The notes under the pieces: generated by a model
The model's database searches: none
What the model saw: only the letters and a program-made list of their open reading frames with translations
What the model was told of the DNA's origin: nothing
From: Pseudarthrobacter sp. MM222
Lineage (GTDB): Bacteria; Actinomycetota; Actinomycetes; Actinomycetales; Micrococcaceae
DNA: 64,000 bases
NCBI RefSeq assembly: GCF_947090775.1
Contig: NZ_OX352321.1
Location: forward strand, 1,612,001-1,676,000
Direction of reading: 5' to 3'
Position numbers and translations under genes: made by a program
In this document: one piece after another, positions 26,111 through 32,182 of the stretch
Numbering within the stretch: the first letter of the stretch is position 1
How the letters are laid out: each line of letters begins with the position of its first letter

Positions 26111-28285
26111 TCACGTGACCGTGATGGTGATTACCGAACCCTCGGGCTCCAGCCCCACCTTGTCCTGACCGGCAACAATGCCGAGCACGGGTTCACCGAA
26201 CGCGTACTTCACTTCGACCTCGAATCCGGCATCTCTGAGCACCTTCTCTGCATCCTTTTCGGACATCCGGAATACCGCTGGAACCTGGACCAATTTCGGC
26301 CCCTTGGAAATGGTGAGCGTGACGGCGCCGCCCTTGGTCAGGTTCCCGGACGCCGGGTCCTGGGCCAACACGGAGCCCTTGGGGACCCTGCGGTCATTGA
26401 CGGTCTCCGGGGAGATCACGGCCTTGAGTCCGGCTGTTTCCAAGGCCTTCACCGCGTCCTCCTGCTCCTGGCCGCGGACATCCGGAACCGGGATGGGCTG
26501 CGGTCCCTTGGAGACGGTCAGCTCCACCGGAGTGCCGTGCTTCGCGGGAGTGCCGTTGGCGGGGGCCTGGGCCAGGACGGTTCCGGCGGCCGCGGATTCG
26601 TCGAATGTCTCTGTGATCTTGCCCAAGGCCATCCCGGCACCGTTGAGCGCTGTTTTGGCTTCGTCCAGGGTCTTCCCGGTCAGCTCCGGCAGCGGGAACA
26701 GCTCGGGCCCTTTGGAGACGGCGAGGGACACTGTCTGGAACTTGCGGATGACCTCTCCGGCATCGGGTTCTGATCCGACGACGAGCCCCGGCAAGACGTT
26801 GTCGTCATAGACATCATCCTCGGTGGTGAACTGGAAGCCGGCGGTTTTCAGTACTTGCCGCGCTTCCGCCACGGTCTTGTTGGCCAGTTGCGGAATCGTC
26901 CCCGGGGAGCCGGGGCCCATCCCGAAGAACCAGCCGGCGCCGGCGGCGAGCAGCGCGGCAAGAACCAGCAGCAGGATCCACAGCAGCCCCCGGCGTCGGG
27001 GATTGCCCGCACGCAGGCTCCGGACGGGGGTGGCCGCGGCGCGCAGGCGTGCCTTCTCCTCATCGCGGTCCAGCTTGCGCTGGGTGCGCTTGCTGGCGGG
27101 ACCCGCCGCTGGGCCAGGACCGTCGTCGCCGTACGAGTCGGCGCCGTAGGTGTCCCGGTCCGGAACCTCGTCCGGGGCGGAGAGCGGGCCGTAGGCCGGG
27201 CGCCGCGGAGCCGCGGACATCACCGTGGTGGGATTGCTGCCGCGGGAGATGATTTCGGTGGGCCGTTGGGTCCCGCCGAGCACCTCGGTCCGGGAATGCG
27301 GGTCTCCGTCGTCCGCGGGCTCGTTCGGGACAACGTTCCCGCGGCCGCCCTCAGGGGGGCGGCCGACGGCGGGCGGGCCGGGCGGCGGAGGCACGGCGGG
27401 GAGAATCGGATGCGCCGCCGGAGGCTGGAGATCGAGTTCGGCGTCGCTCAGGTTGGTCCTGATGTGCCGGAGTTCGGACAGCAGCGTGTTTCCATCCACG
27501 GGCCGTTTGTCCGGATCGTTCGCGGTGCACCACTGCACCAGCTCATCGAGTTCCTCGGCCAGGCCCGGGACCAGCTCCGAGGGGGCACCCACGGTTGAGT
27601 TGACATGCTGGTAGGCCACCTGGATGGGCACCTCGCCGTCGAAGGGCTGCCGGCCGGTGATCATCTCGTACAGCATGATGCCGACGGAGTAGATGTCGCT
27701 GCGGGCGTCGGCCTGCTTTCCCAGAACCAGTTCGGGGGAGAGATACGCCACCGTACCGATCAGGGCTCCCGTGCTGGTGGAAGTGGAGATTGCCCGGGCA
27801 AGTCCGAAGTCCCCGACCTTGATCCGGCCGTCGTCGGCGATGAGCACGTTTTCGGGCTTGATGTCCCGGTGGATCAGGCCGGCGGCATGGGCGGCACCGA
27901 GTCCTTCCACCACGGGGGCGATCAGGGCCAGGGCGAGGCGCGGCGGAAGCGCACCTCTTTGCTTGAGAACGTCCCGCAGGGTGTGGCCCTTGATGTACTC
28001 CATGACGAGGTACGCGATCCGGCCGTCCTCGCCCTGGTCGAGGACCCCGACGACGTGAGGGTGGGACAGCCGGGCCGCCGCCTTGGCCTCGCGCCCGAGG
28101 CGGTCCAGGAACTGGGGGTCTCCGGCGAGGTGCGGGTGCAGCACCTTGAGGGCCACATCGCGCTCGAGCCGGCGGTCCGTAGCCAGATAGACGGTGGACA
28201 TGCCGCCGCTGGCCAATCTGGACTGGATCAGGTACCGGCCATCCACCAAGGTGCCAACGAGAGGGTCCGACGTGTTTTCCTGCAC
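26111..28285 (-). CDS. pknL: Membrane Ser/Thr protein kinase with four PASTA domains (PknL-type locus)
   Basis: 724 residues. The kinase domain covers residues about 17-275: glycine loop LASGGMSTVYLA, Lys47, catalytic HRDIKPEN with Asp141, DFG at 159-161, and a Thr/Ser-rich activation loop (ISTSTSTGALIGT). A Pro-rich linker (290-430) leads to one membrane helix (433-453). Four extracellular PASTA repeats follow, each ending VSKGPE/Q or similar, except the last. PASTA repeats bind peptidoglycan fragments. The neighbourhood (aroG, kinase, Rv2175c-like gene, polyprenyl synthetase) equals the mycobacterial pknL locus, hence the symbol. M. tuberculosis PknL is described without PASTA repeats, so this protein looks like a PknB/PknL hybrid; the symbol is tentative. 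Confidence 0.9.
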   Translation of the reverse strand: MQENTSDPLVGTLVDGRYLIQSRLASGGMSTVYLATDRRLERDVALKVLHPHLAGDPQFLDRLGREAKAAARLSHPHVVGVLDQGEDGRIAYLVMEYIKGHTLRDVLKQRGALPPRLALALIAPVVEGLGAAHAAGLIHRDIKPENVLIADDGRIKVGDFGLARAISTSTSTGALIGTVAYLSPELVLGKQADARSDIYSVGIMLYEMITGRQPFDGEVPIQVAYQHVNSTVGAPSELVPGLAEELDELVQWCTANDPDKRPVDGNTLLSELRHIRTNLSDAELDLQPPAAHPILPAVPPPPGPPAVGRPPEGGRGNVVPNEPADDGDPHSRTEVLGGTQRPTEIISRGSNPTTVMSAAPRRPAYGPLSAPDEVPDRDTYGADSYGDDGPGPAAGPASKRTQRKLDRDEEKARLRAAATPVRSLRAGNPRRRGLLWILLLVLAALLAAGAGWFFGMGPGSPGTIPQLANKTVAEARQVLKTAGFQFTTEDDVYDDNVLPGLVVGSEPDAGEVIRKFQTVSLAVSKGPELFPLPELTGKTLDEAKTALNGAGMALGKITETFDESAAAGTVLAQAPANGTPAKHGTPVELTVSKGPQPIPVPDVRGQEQEDAVKALETAGLKAVISPETVNDRRVPKGSVLAQDPASGNLTKGGAVTLTISKGPKLVQVPAVFRMSEKDAEKVLRDAGFEVEVKYAFGEPVLGIVAGQDKVGLEPEGSVITITVT

Positions 28286-28311
28286 CTTACGATCCTAAAC
28301 GTTGCACGGAA

Positions 28312-28344
28312 ACGGGCCCGGATCAACATGAGATCCGGACCCGT
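28312..28344. terminator. Imperfect hairpin downstream of the LysM/transglycosylase gene
   Basis: Arms 28312-28324 and 28332-28344 (one mismatch) form a hairpin about 80 bases after the transglycosylase stop on the minus strand, followed by T-rich sequence on that strand. A second short hairpin lies at about 28364-28384. A weak terminator call. Confidence 0.4.
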
Positions 28345-28421
28345 ATCGTTATCCTTCATGGAGCCCCGGCAGAAACGCCGGGGGGCCGCTCCGTCTCTAT
28401 CCTGTGGACCTGTCCCGGGAC

Positions 28422-29810
28422 CTAGCCGAAGTTCTGCTGGTGGGCCTTGATGGAGGCCACATACTGCTTGGTGTCCTCGAACATCCCGTTGGTGCTGACC
28501 GAATACTGGCCCTGGTAGTAGCCTGCGATCGCGTTGTCCAGGTCGCTGCTGGTGCGGACCAGTTGGCGGATGATGGCGACGCCGGCGGTGGCGTTGTCGT
28601 AGGGGTCCAGCAGGTTCAGCTGGCGGCCCACGAGGTCAGATGCCCACTCGCCCGAAGACGGGATCACCTGCATGGTGCCGATGGCGTTGGCGGGGGACAC
28701 CGCGCGCTGGTCGAAACCCGACTCCTGATGGGCGAAGGCCAGTGCCAGGGAGGAATCCACGCCCATCCGGCGGGCCGTATCGGCCACGATGGCTTTCATC
28801 TGCTCCCGGCTCGGGACCGGGGCGGCGTTGAGCAAGGCCTTGTTCTGGTTGGCCGAGCTGACCACCGCTTCCGGGTAGGTGAAGCCAAGGAAGGTGCTGG
28901 GCACCAGCGGAGTCACCGTCGCCGGAGGCTGGCTCGGCGCCGGAGTCTGGCTCGAAGCCGGTGCGATGGACCCACCGGCAAGCACCAGCTTCTGGCCGGG
29001 GTAGATGATGGTGCTCATGGTCAGCCGGTTGGCGGAGAGGATGTCGGCGAGCTTGACGCCATTCCGGGCTGCGATTCCCGAGAGCGTGTCGCCGGTCTTG
29101 ATGGTGTACGAACCCGAGGCGGGTGCGGCCGGGGTGGCCGCCGGAGTCGCAGCCGGCGCCACCGGAGCCGGGGCTGCCGGGGCGGGGGCTGTGCCGCCGG
29201 AGCCGAGCTGGATTTTCTGGCCCGGGTAGATGATGGAGCCCATGTTCAGGCCGTTCCATCCGAAGACCTCGGAGAGCTGGACGCCATGCCGGGCTGCGAT
29301 CGCGCCCAGGGTGTCGCCCGGCTTCACGGTGTAGGAACTACCGGTGGATGCCGGTGCGCTCGGCTGTGCCGCCGGAGCCTCTGCCGGTGCGTCCCCGCCA
29401 AGCTTGATCTTCTGCCCCGGGTAGATGATGGTGTTGGCCTGCAGGTTGTTCAGGGACAGCACGGCGTTCGTGTCCAGGCCGAACTTCCCGGCGATTCCGC
29501 TGATGGTGTCGCCGCGCTCGATGGTGTACTCGGCCGGGGCCGAGGCCTGGGCCGGACGCATTGAACTCGGGATGGCCGCCGAGACCGAGCTGGACGGAAT
29601 GCGGGCGGACACCAGCTGGGTTGCGGCCTGGGCCTGGGCGCGCATGGCCGCGGCCAGGGTGGCCGGGATGGACCGGGTGCGGGACTCCGCTGACGCCGGC
29701 TGGGCAACCGCCAGGGAGGAAAGGACGACTGCGGGAAGGGCCGCCGTCGTCGCCGCAATCAATGGCAGGCTGGGCCGCGCCGGGTGCTTCGGCGAACGGA
29801 ACGTCGTCAT
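28422..29810 (-). CDS. Secreted LysM-repeat lytic transglycosylase
   Basis: 462 residues. A signal peptide (about 1-41, ending PASA|E) is followed by an Ala/Ser-rich stretch. Three LysM domains (about 95-138, 158-202, 228-275) come next, each starting like YTIERGDTISGIA and ending IIYPGQK and joined by Ala/Pro linkers. The C-terminal lysozyme-like transglycosylase domain (about 330-462) has ALAFAHQESGFDQRAVSPANAIGTMQV, where Glu is catalytic. It cleaves glycan strands of peptidoglycan outside the cell. RBS-like AGAGGATC precedes the ATG. Just upstream lies an array of seven 9-bp repeats. It lies beside, and in the same direction as, the PASTA kinase gene. Confidence 0.9.
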   Translation of the reverse strand: MTTFRSPKHPARPSLPLIAATTAALPAVVLSSLAVAQPASAESRTRSIPATLAAAMRAQAQAATQLVSARIPSSSVSAAIPSSMRPAQASAPAEYTIERGDTISGIAGKFGLDTNAVLSLNNLQANTIIYPGQKIKLGGDAPAEAPAAQPSAPASTGSSYTVKPGDTLGAIAARHGVQLSEVFGWNGLNMGSIIYPGQKIQLGSGGTAPAPAAPAPVAPAATPAATPAAPASGSYTIKTGDTLSGIAARNGVKLADILSANRLTMSTIIYPGQKLVLAGGSIAPASSQTPAPSQPPATVTPLVPSTFLGFTYPEAVVSSANQNKALLNAAPVPSREQMKAIVADTARRMGVDSSLALAFAHQESGFDQRAVSPANAIGTMQVIPSSGEWASDLVGRQLNLLDPYDNATAGVAIIRQLVRTSSDLDNAIAGYYQGQYSVSTNGMFEDTKQYVASIKAHQQNFG

Positions 29811-29853
29811 GGGAAAGATCCTCTTCTCAGCGGCGAACGCTGCGGGTCAGGCC

Positions 29854-29916
29854 GGTGTTACTGGCGTTACCAGTGTGACCAATGTTAATGCTGTTACAAA
29901 TGTGATCTATGTGAAT
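29854..29916 (-). promoter_or_regulatory. Array of seven 9-bp direct repeats (MtrA-like sites) before the transglycosylase gene
   Basis: Seven contiguous 9-base units on the plus strand: GGTGTTACT, GGCGTTACC, AGTGTGACC, AATGTTAAT, GCTGTTACA, AATGTGATC, TATGTGAAT. On the minus strand, which is the gene's direction, each contains a GTAACA/GTCACA-like core. The array ends 44 bases upstream of the start codon. Direct repeats of such cores with 9-base phasing are what the response regulator MtrA is known to bind at wall-hydrolase genes in other actinobacteria. The rest of the 333-base gap 29811-30143 shows no gene. Confidence 0.6.
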
Positions 29917-30143
29917 CTCTCATGAATTGGTGGTTAGCACAAGAACAGTCGGACATTATGCAAACAAACACTTCGGGAGTGTCGGGCAGAATGTGCTGAT
30001 TAATAGGGCCTTGATTCGGGACGGCATTACAAGGGTCCTTTGGCCGTGGTGGCCCTCGGGTGTCCGCACGAGGCCCGGGGCGGCGGCAGTTGGCGCCGGG
30101 CCACGACTAGGCGCAGAAGCATCCGCCATGGCAATCTTGATCC

Positions 30144-30497
30144 GTGAGTACTGTAGAAAGCCTTGTGGGCGAATGGCTGCCCCTGCCCGATGTTGCCCAG
30201 CTTCTGAATGTTTCCATTACGAAGGTCCACGCGCTCCTCGATGAACGTGCCCTGGCGGCCCTGCGGATCGGTGACCGGCGGATTCGTTCGGTGCCCGCGG
30301 CATTCATCCAGGACGGCCACGCGGTGGAGAGCCTTAAGGGCACCGTTGTGGTCCTGTCGGACGCAGGTTACTCGGACGAGGAACTCATCACCTGGCTCTT
30401 CACTCCGGACGAGTCGCTCCGCGGGCGCCCGATCGACGCCCTCCGCGAAGGGCGCAAGACGGAGATCCGCCGCCGGGCACAGTCCCTGGCCTGGTAG
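30144..30497 (+). CDS. Rv2175c-like DNA-binding protein
   Basis: 117 residues. An N-terminal helix-turn-helix of the excisionase/MerR-like type (WLPLPDVAQLLNVSITKVHALLDERALAALRIGDRRIRSVPAAFI) is followed by a conserved C-terminal region (GTVVVLSDAGYSDEELITWLFTPDESLRGRPIDALREGRKTEIRRRAQ). In M. tuberculosis, Rv2175c is a substrate of PknL, and phosphorylation abolishes its DNA binding. The kinase gene in this window makes the same partnership likely. No ribosome binding site is seen; a -10-like CAATCT ends 6 bases before GTG 30144, so a leaderless transcript is possible. Confidence 0.85.
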   Translation: MSTVESLVGEWLPLPDVAQLLNVSITKVHALLDERALAALRIGDRRIRSVPAAFIQDGHAVESLKGTVVVLSDAGYSDEELITWLFTPDESLRGRPIDALREGRKTEIRRRAQSLAW

Positions 30498-30560
30498 CAC
30501 GCATTTTCCCCGGCGAGTCTGCGGACCCGCCGGGGGCAGCCCGGTCCCCTTGGAGGCGTG

Positions 30561-31655
30561 TCAGGCCGTTCGGCTGACCGTGGCCTCGGCCAGCTTGCGC
30601 AGCGCGGTCTTGGGCAGCTCCTCCAGCGGCAGCAGATCGAGGGCCGCGAAGGCCGCGCGTCCGAACTCCTCAATCAACACCTCTGTGGCGTGCAGTGCGC
30701 CGCAGTCAACGATGATGCGGCGGATTTCGTCGATGTCCGCCTCATCCAGCTCGGGGTTCCCCAGCCGGGCATCGATGAACGCCGATTCGGCCGGCGTGGC
30801 CTGGTCCAGGGCAAACGCCACCAGGACAGTACGCTTTCCCTCGCGCAGATCATCCCCGGCAGGCTTGCCGGTAGTGACCGGGTCGCCGAAGACGCCCAGC
30901 ACGTCGTCCCGAAGCTGGAAGGCCTCGCCCAGCGGGAGGGCAAAGGCCGAATAGCCGCGAAGCAGCTCGTCCGACGCGCCGGCCAGCGCCCCGCCCAGGG
31001 CCAGGGGGTGCTCGGTGGAGTACTTCGCGGACTTGAAGCGGATGATCGACTGTGCCCGGCTGACAGCGCCGGCCCGGTCCCGCCGCGGTCCGGCAACCTC
31101 TTCCAGGATGTCCAGGTACTGACCGGCCATGACCTCTGCACGCATCAGGTTGAAGATCAGCCGTGCCCGGCTGCCCGAAGCGGCCCGCTCCCCGATTTCC
31201 GTGAACGACTCCTCGCTGAAGGACAAGCACAGGTCTCCGGTGAGGATGGCCGCCGCGTGGCCGAACCGTTCCCGGTCCAGCGCCCAGCCCTGGGTCTCGT
31301 GGAGGTCGCTGAAGCGCCGGTGCACACTGGGCCCGCCTCGGCGCGTGTCGGAGCGGTCAATGATGTCGTCGTGAATGAGGGCGGCGGCCTGGAACAGTTC
31401 CAGGGCCGACCCGGCTGTGACCACTTCGCCGGCGCCGGGCTCCCCGCCCGCCCCGCGCCAGCCCCAGTAGCACATGAGTGCCCGCAACCTCTTGCCGCCG
31501 GTGACCAGGTTGGAGATGGAGCCCATCAGCGGATCGATGTCCTGGGAGATGGAGGACATGACGGCCTGGCGGGTGGACAGGAAATCGGTGAGCTTGCCCG
31601 CGACGGCGGCTACGTAGCCCGTCTGCTCGACGCGCAGCTGCTCCGCGAGAGTCAC
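30561..31655 (-). CDS. Polyprenyl (geranylgeranyl-type) diphosphate synthase
   Basis: 364 residues. The first Asp-rich motif is LIHDDIIDRSDTRRG and the second is FQLRDDVLGVFGD; GGKRLRALMCYWGW binds isopentenyl diphosphate. It adds isopentenyl units in all-trans configuration, making geranyl, farnesyl or geranylgeranyl diphosphate for carotenoid, menaquinone or lipid carrier routes. It corresponds to IdsA-type enzymes next to the mycobacterial pknL locus. The GTG start (complement of 31655) overlaps the stop of the lipoprotein gene by 4 bases (GTGA), so the two are co-translated. A hairpin (30509-30536) lies between its stop and the convergent Rv2175c-like gene. Confidence 0.9.
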   Translation of the reverse strand: MTLAEQLRVEQTGYVAAVAGKLTDFLSTRQAVMSSISQDIDPLMGSISNLVTGGKRLRALMCYWGWRGAGGEPGAGEVVTAGSALELFQAAALIHDDIIDRSDTRRGGPSVHRRFSDLHETQGWALDRERFGHAAAILTGDLCLSFSEESFTEIGERAASGSRARLIFNLMRAEVMAGQYLDILEEVAGPRRDRAGAVSRAQSIIRFKSAKYSTEHPLALGGALAGASDELLRGYSAFALPLGEAFQLRDDVLGVFGDPVTTGKPAGDDLREGKRTVLVAFALDQATPAESAFIDARLGNPELDEADIDEIRRIIVDCGALHATEVLIEEFGRAAFAALDLLPLEELPKTALRKLAEATVSRTA

Positions 31656-32182
31656 TTGACGGACTCGGCAGCGACGTTCGCGCCGATTGTGAAGGTTGAG
31701 ACGCCGGCGGTTTCCACCACGGAAATGTTGACCGTCTCGTTGTCACCGCGCAGGAAATCCTTGGACGGGACGGAGCCCACGGTCTCGCCCGGGACGGCTT
31801 TGAAGCCCTGAGCCTCCAGTTGCGCCGTGTAAAAGGCCAGGACGTTGGCGGCCGGGGCCGGAATGCTGCCGACCAGTGCCACCGTGGCAGGCGCGGTCGT
31901 CTTGTCGAAACTGCTGGAGACCACCTTTGCGCCGGGCATCAGCGGCAACAGCTGCTGCGGGAATCCCGGAACCAGGGCCCCTACCGTGGCCGAGGTGCCG
32001 GGTTCGGCGGAAGGACTGGGCGGGGCCGTGGTGGTCGGCGGCGCGGTCGAGGCGACGGCAGGGGCTGACGGGGCGGTCGAGGAAGCGGTCCCCGGGGCGG
32101 GCGTGCAGGCGGCCAGGGCCATTAGGGTGCCAGCCGCAAAAACGGCAACCGCAGCACGTTTGCGCTCTCCAAAAACCTTCAC
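31652..32182 (-). CDS. Putative lipoprotein
   Basis: 176 residues from GTG (complement of 32182), chosen because AGGAGGA (complement of 32191-32197) lies 8 bases upstream. The N-terminus KVFGERKRAAVAVFAAGTLMALAAC is a lipoprotein signal with Cys26 as the lipidated residue. A Thr/Pro/Ser/Ala-rich linker (about 27-65) is followed by a compact C-terminal domain of about 110 residues with two similar halves (VVSSSFDKTTAPATVALVG..., NISVVETAGVSTFTIG). No family is recognised. It is the first gene of a pair with the polyprenyl synthase and shares a divergent promoter region with dinB. Confidence 0.8.
   Translation of the reverse strand: MKVFGERKRAAVAVFAAGTLMALAACTPAPGTASSTAPSAPAVASTAPPTTTAPPSPSAEPGTSATVGALVPGFPQQLLPLMPGAKVVSSSFDKTTAPATVALVGSIPAPAANVLAFYTAQLEAQGFKAVPGETVGSVPSKDFLRGDNETVNISVVETAGVSTFTIGANVAAESVK

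Follow-up and report, generated by a model that had tools for sequence, protein, structure and literature searches.

A conserved array of 9-bp direct repeats upstream of a LysM transglycosylase gene in Pseudarthrobacter looks like the operator of a peptidoglycan-hydrolase regulon

What reads a run of seven short direct repeats upstream of a wall-cutting enzyme gene? This question was raised by a 64,000-nucleotide stretch of the Pseudarthrobacter sp. MM222 genome (contig NZ_OX352321.1, positions 1,612,001 to 1,676,000 of the forward strand; hereafter, the window), where an array of 9-bp units with the pattern NNTMACANN occupied positions 29854..29916 on the minus strand. The gene downstream of it (28422..29810, minus strand, 462 amino acids) encoded a transglycosylase with three LysM domains and an SLT domain according to Pfam, in agreement with a preliminary description of the locus, which had also proposed that the repeats were an MtrA-type array. 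We found that the array was conserved, that it recurred at other wall-hydrolase genes, and that it looked like the DNA operator of a peptidoglycan-hydrolase regulon. The leading candidate for its binder, proposed tentatively, was the divergently encoded Rv2175c-family protein.

Positions 29854-29916 read GGTGTTACT GGCGTTACC AGTGTGACC AATGTTAAT GCTGTTACA AATGTGATC TATGTGAAT, where unit 1 was located at 29908-29916 and unit 7, the closest to the LysM-SLT gene, at 29854-29862. On the gene (minus) strand, T-A/C-A-C was present at positions 3-6 of all seven units, giving a TMAC score of 28/28, whereas shuffling the 64-kb window 200 times with dinucleotides preserved gave a best score of 22. The preliminary description was thus right about the seven uninterrupted 9-base units, as well as about their location just 5' of the start codon, but the gap was 43 bases (29811-29853) and not 44. 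Tandem Repeats Finder, run with a minimum score of 30, did not report the array; the repetition was confined to the unit core. The array is real and not a product of chance.

The LysM gene had relatives in 53 of 59 genomes and in 141 of the 149 genomes of the family. To describe their upstream regions, periods from 7 to 13 bp were compared and a period was called when it was the unique best one. In the named Arthrobacter-group LysM loci (80 fetched; 76 used after the truncated L326, L342, L359, and L364 were left out), 9 bp was the unique best period in 76/76 cases, with a median score of 22/24 versus 13-15 at other periods. The same period was called in 34 of 40 upstream regions across the family, so the conservation in close relatives on which the preliminary description had staked its proposal was indeed found. 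The remaining six loci were L113, L114, L118 (tied), L128, L131, and L133; the array was visible by eye in L128 and L133, the latter with a 1-bp slip. At the level of the order, 9 bp was the unique best period in 11/20 loci.

The composition of the units was analyzed by pooling units 2-6, excluding the 5'-truncated L025 from the genus set, seven anchorless loci (L010, L098, L113, L114, L115, L124, and L131), and three loci with a 10-bp first step (L118, L119, and L133). C occupied position 6 in 100% of these units in the 30 genus rows and in 93% in the 29 other-genus rows, and position 7 was A or T in 89-98% of the pooled units. Outside the genus, positions 8 and 9 were nearly free, and the spacer positions varied; the pooled consensus was AGTMACA. 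Uninterrupted runs of units with at least three of the four core letters were 5-8 units long in 26/30 genus rows and 1-7 units long in the 32 other-genus rows; the array length reached eight units. Since the core was kept and the spacers varied, selection acted on the phase and the core, not on the whole sequence.

A sequence-only profile built from 27 arrays was then searched in 297 genomes of the order with E up to 0.05 per genome. It matched 140 of them, with about 15 chance matches expected at that limit. Both a LysM relative and an Rv2175c gene were present in 22 of the 30 profile-matched loci that were returned. We examined 29 matches outside LysM loci: 8 were at loci returned by the search, 17 came from a set of 20 that were fetched, and 4 were from the window's own genome. 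A wall-enzyme or peptidase gene adjoined 16 of these 29 matches: 10 NlpC/P60 (assigned by coordinates or Pfam), 1 M23, 4 GH25 (three assigned by Pfam and one by eye), and 1 zinc peptidase. The other 13 included one match upstream of rsmH and two before related small secreted proteins. In the window's own genome, the LysM array scored 49.2 bits, and the second-best match (17.8 bits, E 0.011) was located upstream of an NlpC/P60 gene. Arrays at the other wall-hydrolase genes were shorter than the LysM array and occurred in either orientation, running against the gene at NlpC/P60 promoters and with the gene at LysM. No 9-bp array was found in the same genome upstream of the paralogous LysM-SLT gene (L156), rpf (L160), or a third LysM gene (L163). 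Judging from these sequence comparisons, the array is probably the DNA site of a regulator shared by wall-cutting genes.

Several observations accompanied this search. The second LysM-SLT gene of the window's own genome (G000:C1:630315-631460) had an SLT part that was 64% identical and no 9-bp array upstream. A short 9-bp array was located directly before a small secreted protein in L247 (G000:C1:783491-783525) and L235, and the L247 protein contained a repeated APGWWPDAKPQ-like motif. In L206 (family f7), a strong GTCACA 9-bp array was positioned 86-156 bp upstream of rsmH (MraW family), depending on the start codon, which hinted that cell-division genes may belong to the regulon in f7. Both f7 and f20 carried arrays at genes other than LysM, at rsmH or NlpC/P60.

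Which protein could occupy such a site? MtrA, whose gene is presumably present in this genome as in actinobacteria generally, was a serious rival here, possible as a binder and not favored. The array half-site (A/G)TMACA matched the published MtrA half-sites, TMAC being present in 7/7 units, and the array shared both the half-site RTMAC(A) and the wall-hydrolase targets with the MtrA sites of Mycobacterium, Corynebacterium, and Streptomyces. In the parts of the literature drawn on (PMC5650626, PMC6265350, PMC3353115, PMC13189361, PMC5859096, PMC4601284, PMC11963761, PMC10609481, PMC6151718, PMC12338722, PMC6683498, and PMC9599347), the genes controlled by MtrA included rpf2 of C. glutamicum and mycobacterial ripAB, and T1 and C4 were the key bases of the S. 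venezuelae half-site; T3 and C6 of the array units were conserved. According to one of these papers, the mycobacterial site consists of directly repeated copies of the 9-base motif GTCACAgcg, and another reported a different, TCG-rich MtrA motif in Dietzia (PMC9599347). However, the published sites had mostly an 11-bp period (8+3 in C. glutamicum, 6+5 in S. coelicolor, 7+4 or 9-mers plus 2 in M. tuberculosis), with two further descriptions giving 10-13 bp, and they consisted of two half-sites. In contrast, the array contained up to eight units, and the direct repeat of about 11 bp typical of MtrA was replaced by 9 bp in 76/76 loci. Thus, the half-site proposed in the preliminary description held, and the 9-base phasing that it had attributed to MtrA repeats was not supported.

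The same family provided an internal comparison. Upstream of rpf in 30 family loci, we counted 19 RTMAC pairs at 11 bp (in 15/30 loci), 1 at 9 bp, 0 at 10 bp, and at most 2 at any non-11 period from 6 to 20. Upstream of LysM in 69 loci, there were 78 pairs at 9 bp (37 loci), 64 at 18 bp, and 13 at 11 bp (12 loci). By eye, 10 of these 13 pairs were inside arrays and came from units with T at position 5. Such incidental pairs also require C at position 8, which showed little excess in the T5 units (18/49 versus 76/236 in other units), which counted against MtrA. Therefore, one half-site was used with two spacings within one family, 9 bp at LysM and 11 bp at rpf, which argues for two binders or two modes of binding. 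The recurrent 11-bp RTMAC direct repeat at rpf (L164-L193) was in itself a probable MtrA site. Taken together, we considered it possible, on the unlikely side, that the array was an unusual MtrA site where phosphorylated MtrA or another OmpR-family response regulator, possibly multimeric, would bind RTMACA half-sites in a 9-bp register.

Our preferred reading, which we put forward tentatively and at somewhat less than even chances, was that the array was an extended operator of a wall-hydrolase regulon most likely bound by the divergent Rv2175c-family protein. This protein (30144..30497, plus strand, 117 amino acids) matched PF21531 (41 bits) and PF18367 (101 bits) above the cut-off, i.e., the Rv2175c winged helix-turn-helix and C-terminal domains, and the PDB structure 2kfs (E=1e-15). 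Its AlphaFold model had a pLDDT (predicted local distance difference test) of 88.5, and 2kfs was the only Foldseek match with E <= 0.001. Its named close relatives were mostly from Arthrobacter. According to the sources consulted, in part, the Rv2175c of M. tuberculosis is a DNA-binding protein of the winged-helix type, a phosphomimic of its PknL site abolishes binding, and proteins of this family appear there solely as orphan DNA-binding kinase substrates, with no target genes named. The LysM and Rv2175c genes were both found, in divergent orientation, in 18/20 order loci (L082 was truncated and L089 had no LysM match); this pairing reflected shared descent and was weak evidence for a binder role.

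A more informative case was provided by genomes without Rv2175c. The gene was found in 143/149 family genomes, and all six misses belonged to genus g118 (6/6), making this single clade a natural knock-out of Rv2175c. An NlpC/P60 homologue with a shared N-terminus, presumably orthologous to the other NlpC/P60 genes, was present in 6/6 g118 genomes. At this one gene, 9 bp was the best upstream period in 0/6 g118 genomes versus 14/19 family genomes with Rv2175c; the latter number was obtained from 26 Rv2175c-positive genomes, seven of which (four from g109, as well as G252, G253, and G263) had no placeable full-length NlpC/P60 homologue. The g118 NlpC/P60 promoters had no RTMAC pair at 9 bp; three genomes had a single pair each at 11 bp, and there were 3 pairs at 14 bp. 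The 20 Rv2175c-positive NlpC/P60 promoters (17 from the family plus L255, L257, L262, and L266 from outside it, less dropped rows) had 9 pairs at 9 bp, 10 at 18 bp, and 1 at 11 bp. The one g118 rpf locus that was read (L191) contained two 11-bp pairs, so 11-bp pairs at rpf accompanied the missing 9-bp phase at NlpC/P60, which spoke against MtrA as the reader of the array.

A number of facts weighed against Rv2175c. Genus g118 is one clade, and hence its genotype perhaps reflects one event. Even among the Rv2175c-positive genomes, 9 bp was not the unique best period at NlpC/P60 in 5/19 (L260, L264 tied, L284, L286, and L287 tied). The g109 genomes had Rv2175c, yet no array was located beside it in 8/8 loci, and the profile search of four g109 genomes gave no match in 4/4. 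Outside the family, a 9-bp RTMAC pair was present in only 2 of 28 Rv2175c loci (both from f47) in the stretch read, which may not be the promoter in the truncated L054 and L055. Moreover, the array half-site equals that of MtrA. Finally, in the part of the source consulted, M. tuberculosis was described as the only species whose Rv2175c carries the phosphorylated N-terminal extension; therefore, the kinase link was not directly transferable.

Two side results concerned the same protein. The g109 loci (L136-L143) kept Rv2175c with no LysM homologue or array in the loci read, and in the two aligned g109 proteins (L136 and L141) the wing segment between the strands looked altered. Autoregulation of Rv2175c as the main role of the array was rejected: the array was missing from 8/8 g109 loci, which had Rv2175c and no LysM homologue, and the stretch read contained no RTMAC pair at 9 bp in 26/28 extra-family Rv2175c loci.

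A third type of binder, one that we regarded as unlikely, would be another small excisionase/BldC-type winged-helix protein (for example, those of 70 and 71 aa encoded at L033 and L035) or a further regulator forming a filament. The BldC operators of Streptomyces (whiI, smeA-sffA) resembled the array in being tandem 9-bp direct repeats of variable copy number, and BldC was reported to bind them cooperatively, head to tail, with one protomer per 9 bp; such binding by a winged-helix protein is what we proposed for the array as well. The published consensus was AATTXXXX(C), and the examples given in the sources consulted had 2-4 repeats, compared to NNTMACANN with up to eight units in the array. 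Measured against this consensus, the array units had C at position 6 and mostly A or T at position 7, while positions 8, 9, and 1 were not uniformly A or T. The window's own genome (G000) encoded HTH_17 proteins, four of which were found. The 70-aa protein clearly belonged to TIGR01764 and weakly resembled Gp37 and the BldC structures 6ama/6amk. However, its BldC score was 22.3 bits, against a cut-off of 77, and no BldC match was obtained for the 71-aa protein. BldC itself was not favored as the binder, the two small candidates scanned among the four HTH_17 proteins giving no passing match. BldC was not among the Foldseek matches listed for the Rv2175c-family model. No link between the HTH_17 genes and the arrays was found, and no dedicated test for it was made.

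The position of the array relative to the gene favored transcriptional control. In the window, a -10-like hexamer GAGATT (29914..29919, minus strand) ended with the core T of unit 1, and a -35-like TTGTGC (29937..29942, minus strand) was located 17 bp upstream of it, so the locus looked like a predicted promoter with its -10 element fused to unit 1. A likely ribosome-binding site GAAGAGGAT was present at 29818..29826 (minus strand). In 62 anchored loci, the hexamers at the array start were GAGATT (31), TAAATT (16), TAGATT (9), TAAGTT (4), GATATT (1), and GACATT (1), and the anchored loci outside the genus mostly had TAAATT, TAGATT, or TAAGTT; TTGT was located 5' of the hexamer with a spacer of 15-17 bp in 49/62. 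Thus, in the family loci the array started at the last base of the -10-like hexamer and units 2-7 lay beyond the predicted transcription start. Four loci of the related family f19 (L090, L093, L094, and L095) differed in that the array was directly upstream of a -35-like TTGAC(A/T). This location, not over the -10, suggested a switch from repression to activation.

The predicted placement of units 2-7 downstream of the transcription start was also what would be expected if the array acted in RNA, as a 9-nt repeat in the 5' leader that was bound by an RNA-binding protein or affected translation. We considered this very unlikely. The opposite orientations at NlpC/P60 and LysM fitted a DNA site rather than an RNA element, the f19 arrays were upstream of the -35-like element, the distance from the match start to the start codon varied from about 65 to 260 bases across the family loci, and there was no Rfam match in 28000-32000. 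The latter result also excluded a known Rfam element in this region. A leader peptide was rejected as well, with stops seen by eye in two gene-strand frames in the window and in the third frame in the congener L004. Least probable of all was a functionless repeat made by chance or by slippage, a process from which tandem repeats can arise, given the score far above the shuffles, the kept core and varied spacers across genera, and the recurrence at other hydrolase genes.

Returning to the Rv2175c reading, the mechanism could be as follows. One DNA-binding subunit would occupy each 9-bp unit and neighboring subunits would touch head to tail, making binding cooperative along an array of up to eight units. 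In the family loci, the resulting filament would extend from the last base of the -10-like hexamer over the predicted start and block the promoter, and repression would be lifted when the protein leaves; in f19, an array upstream of the -35-like TTGAC could activate instead. The common site type at other peptidoglycan-hydrolase genes would join them into a wall-hydrolase regulon, with the divergently encoded Rv2175c-family winged-helix protein as the most likely binder. The signal may come from a Ser/Thr kinase with PASTA domains (26111..28285, minus strand; PF00069 plus four PASTA stretches; NF033483), whose gene sat behind the LysM gene in a PknL-like position, in the same cluster as the Rv2175c-family gene. 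A family member and a PASTA kinase in one cluster are likewise found in M. tuberculosis (Rv2175c and PknL), and the kinase might control the protein as PknL does its homologue there; this step was a guess and the weakest one. In its broadest form, which we considered doubtful, the proposal would place a peptidoglycan-hydrolase regulon under Rv2175c-family proteins as its master regulators in much of the actinobacterial order. They would coat 9-bp arrays head to tail, a wall-sensing PASTA kinase would remove them, and they would act in parallel to MtrA with its 11-bp sites.

Control of many wall-remodeling genes by one regulator is familiar from the WalRK-type systems of Firmicutes, which resemble the proposed regulon in this respect and differ from it in protein family and sites. 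The array is real and conserved and probably represents an operator class that is apparently undescribed in the open-licence PubMed Central (PMC) literature, where a search of titles and the starts of abstracts returned nothing on targets of Rv2175c or on an operator of 9-bp repeats at hydrolase genes. Wall hydrolases need tight restraint, and MtrA was their linked actinobacterial regulator in the parts of the literature consulted. The presence of 9-bp and 11-bp promoters in one family offers a ready-made test of whether spacing decides which protein binds. If our reading is true, hydrolase control would gain a further layer, in the form of a second operator class that is separable from the first and has its own spacing, and this class would provide a testable gene set for the Rv2175c family and, perhaps, for PASTA-kinase signaling.
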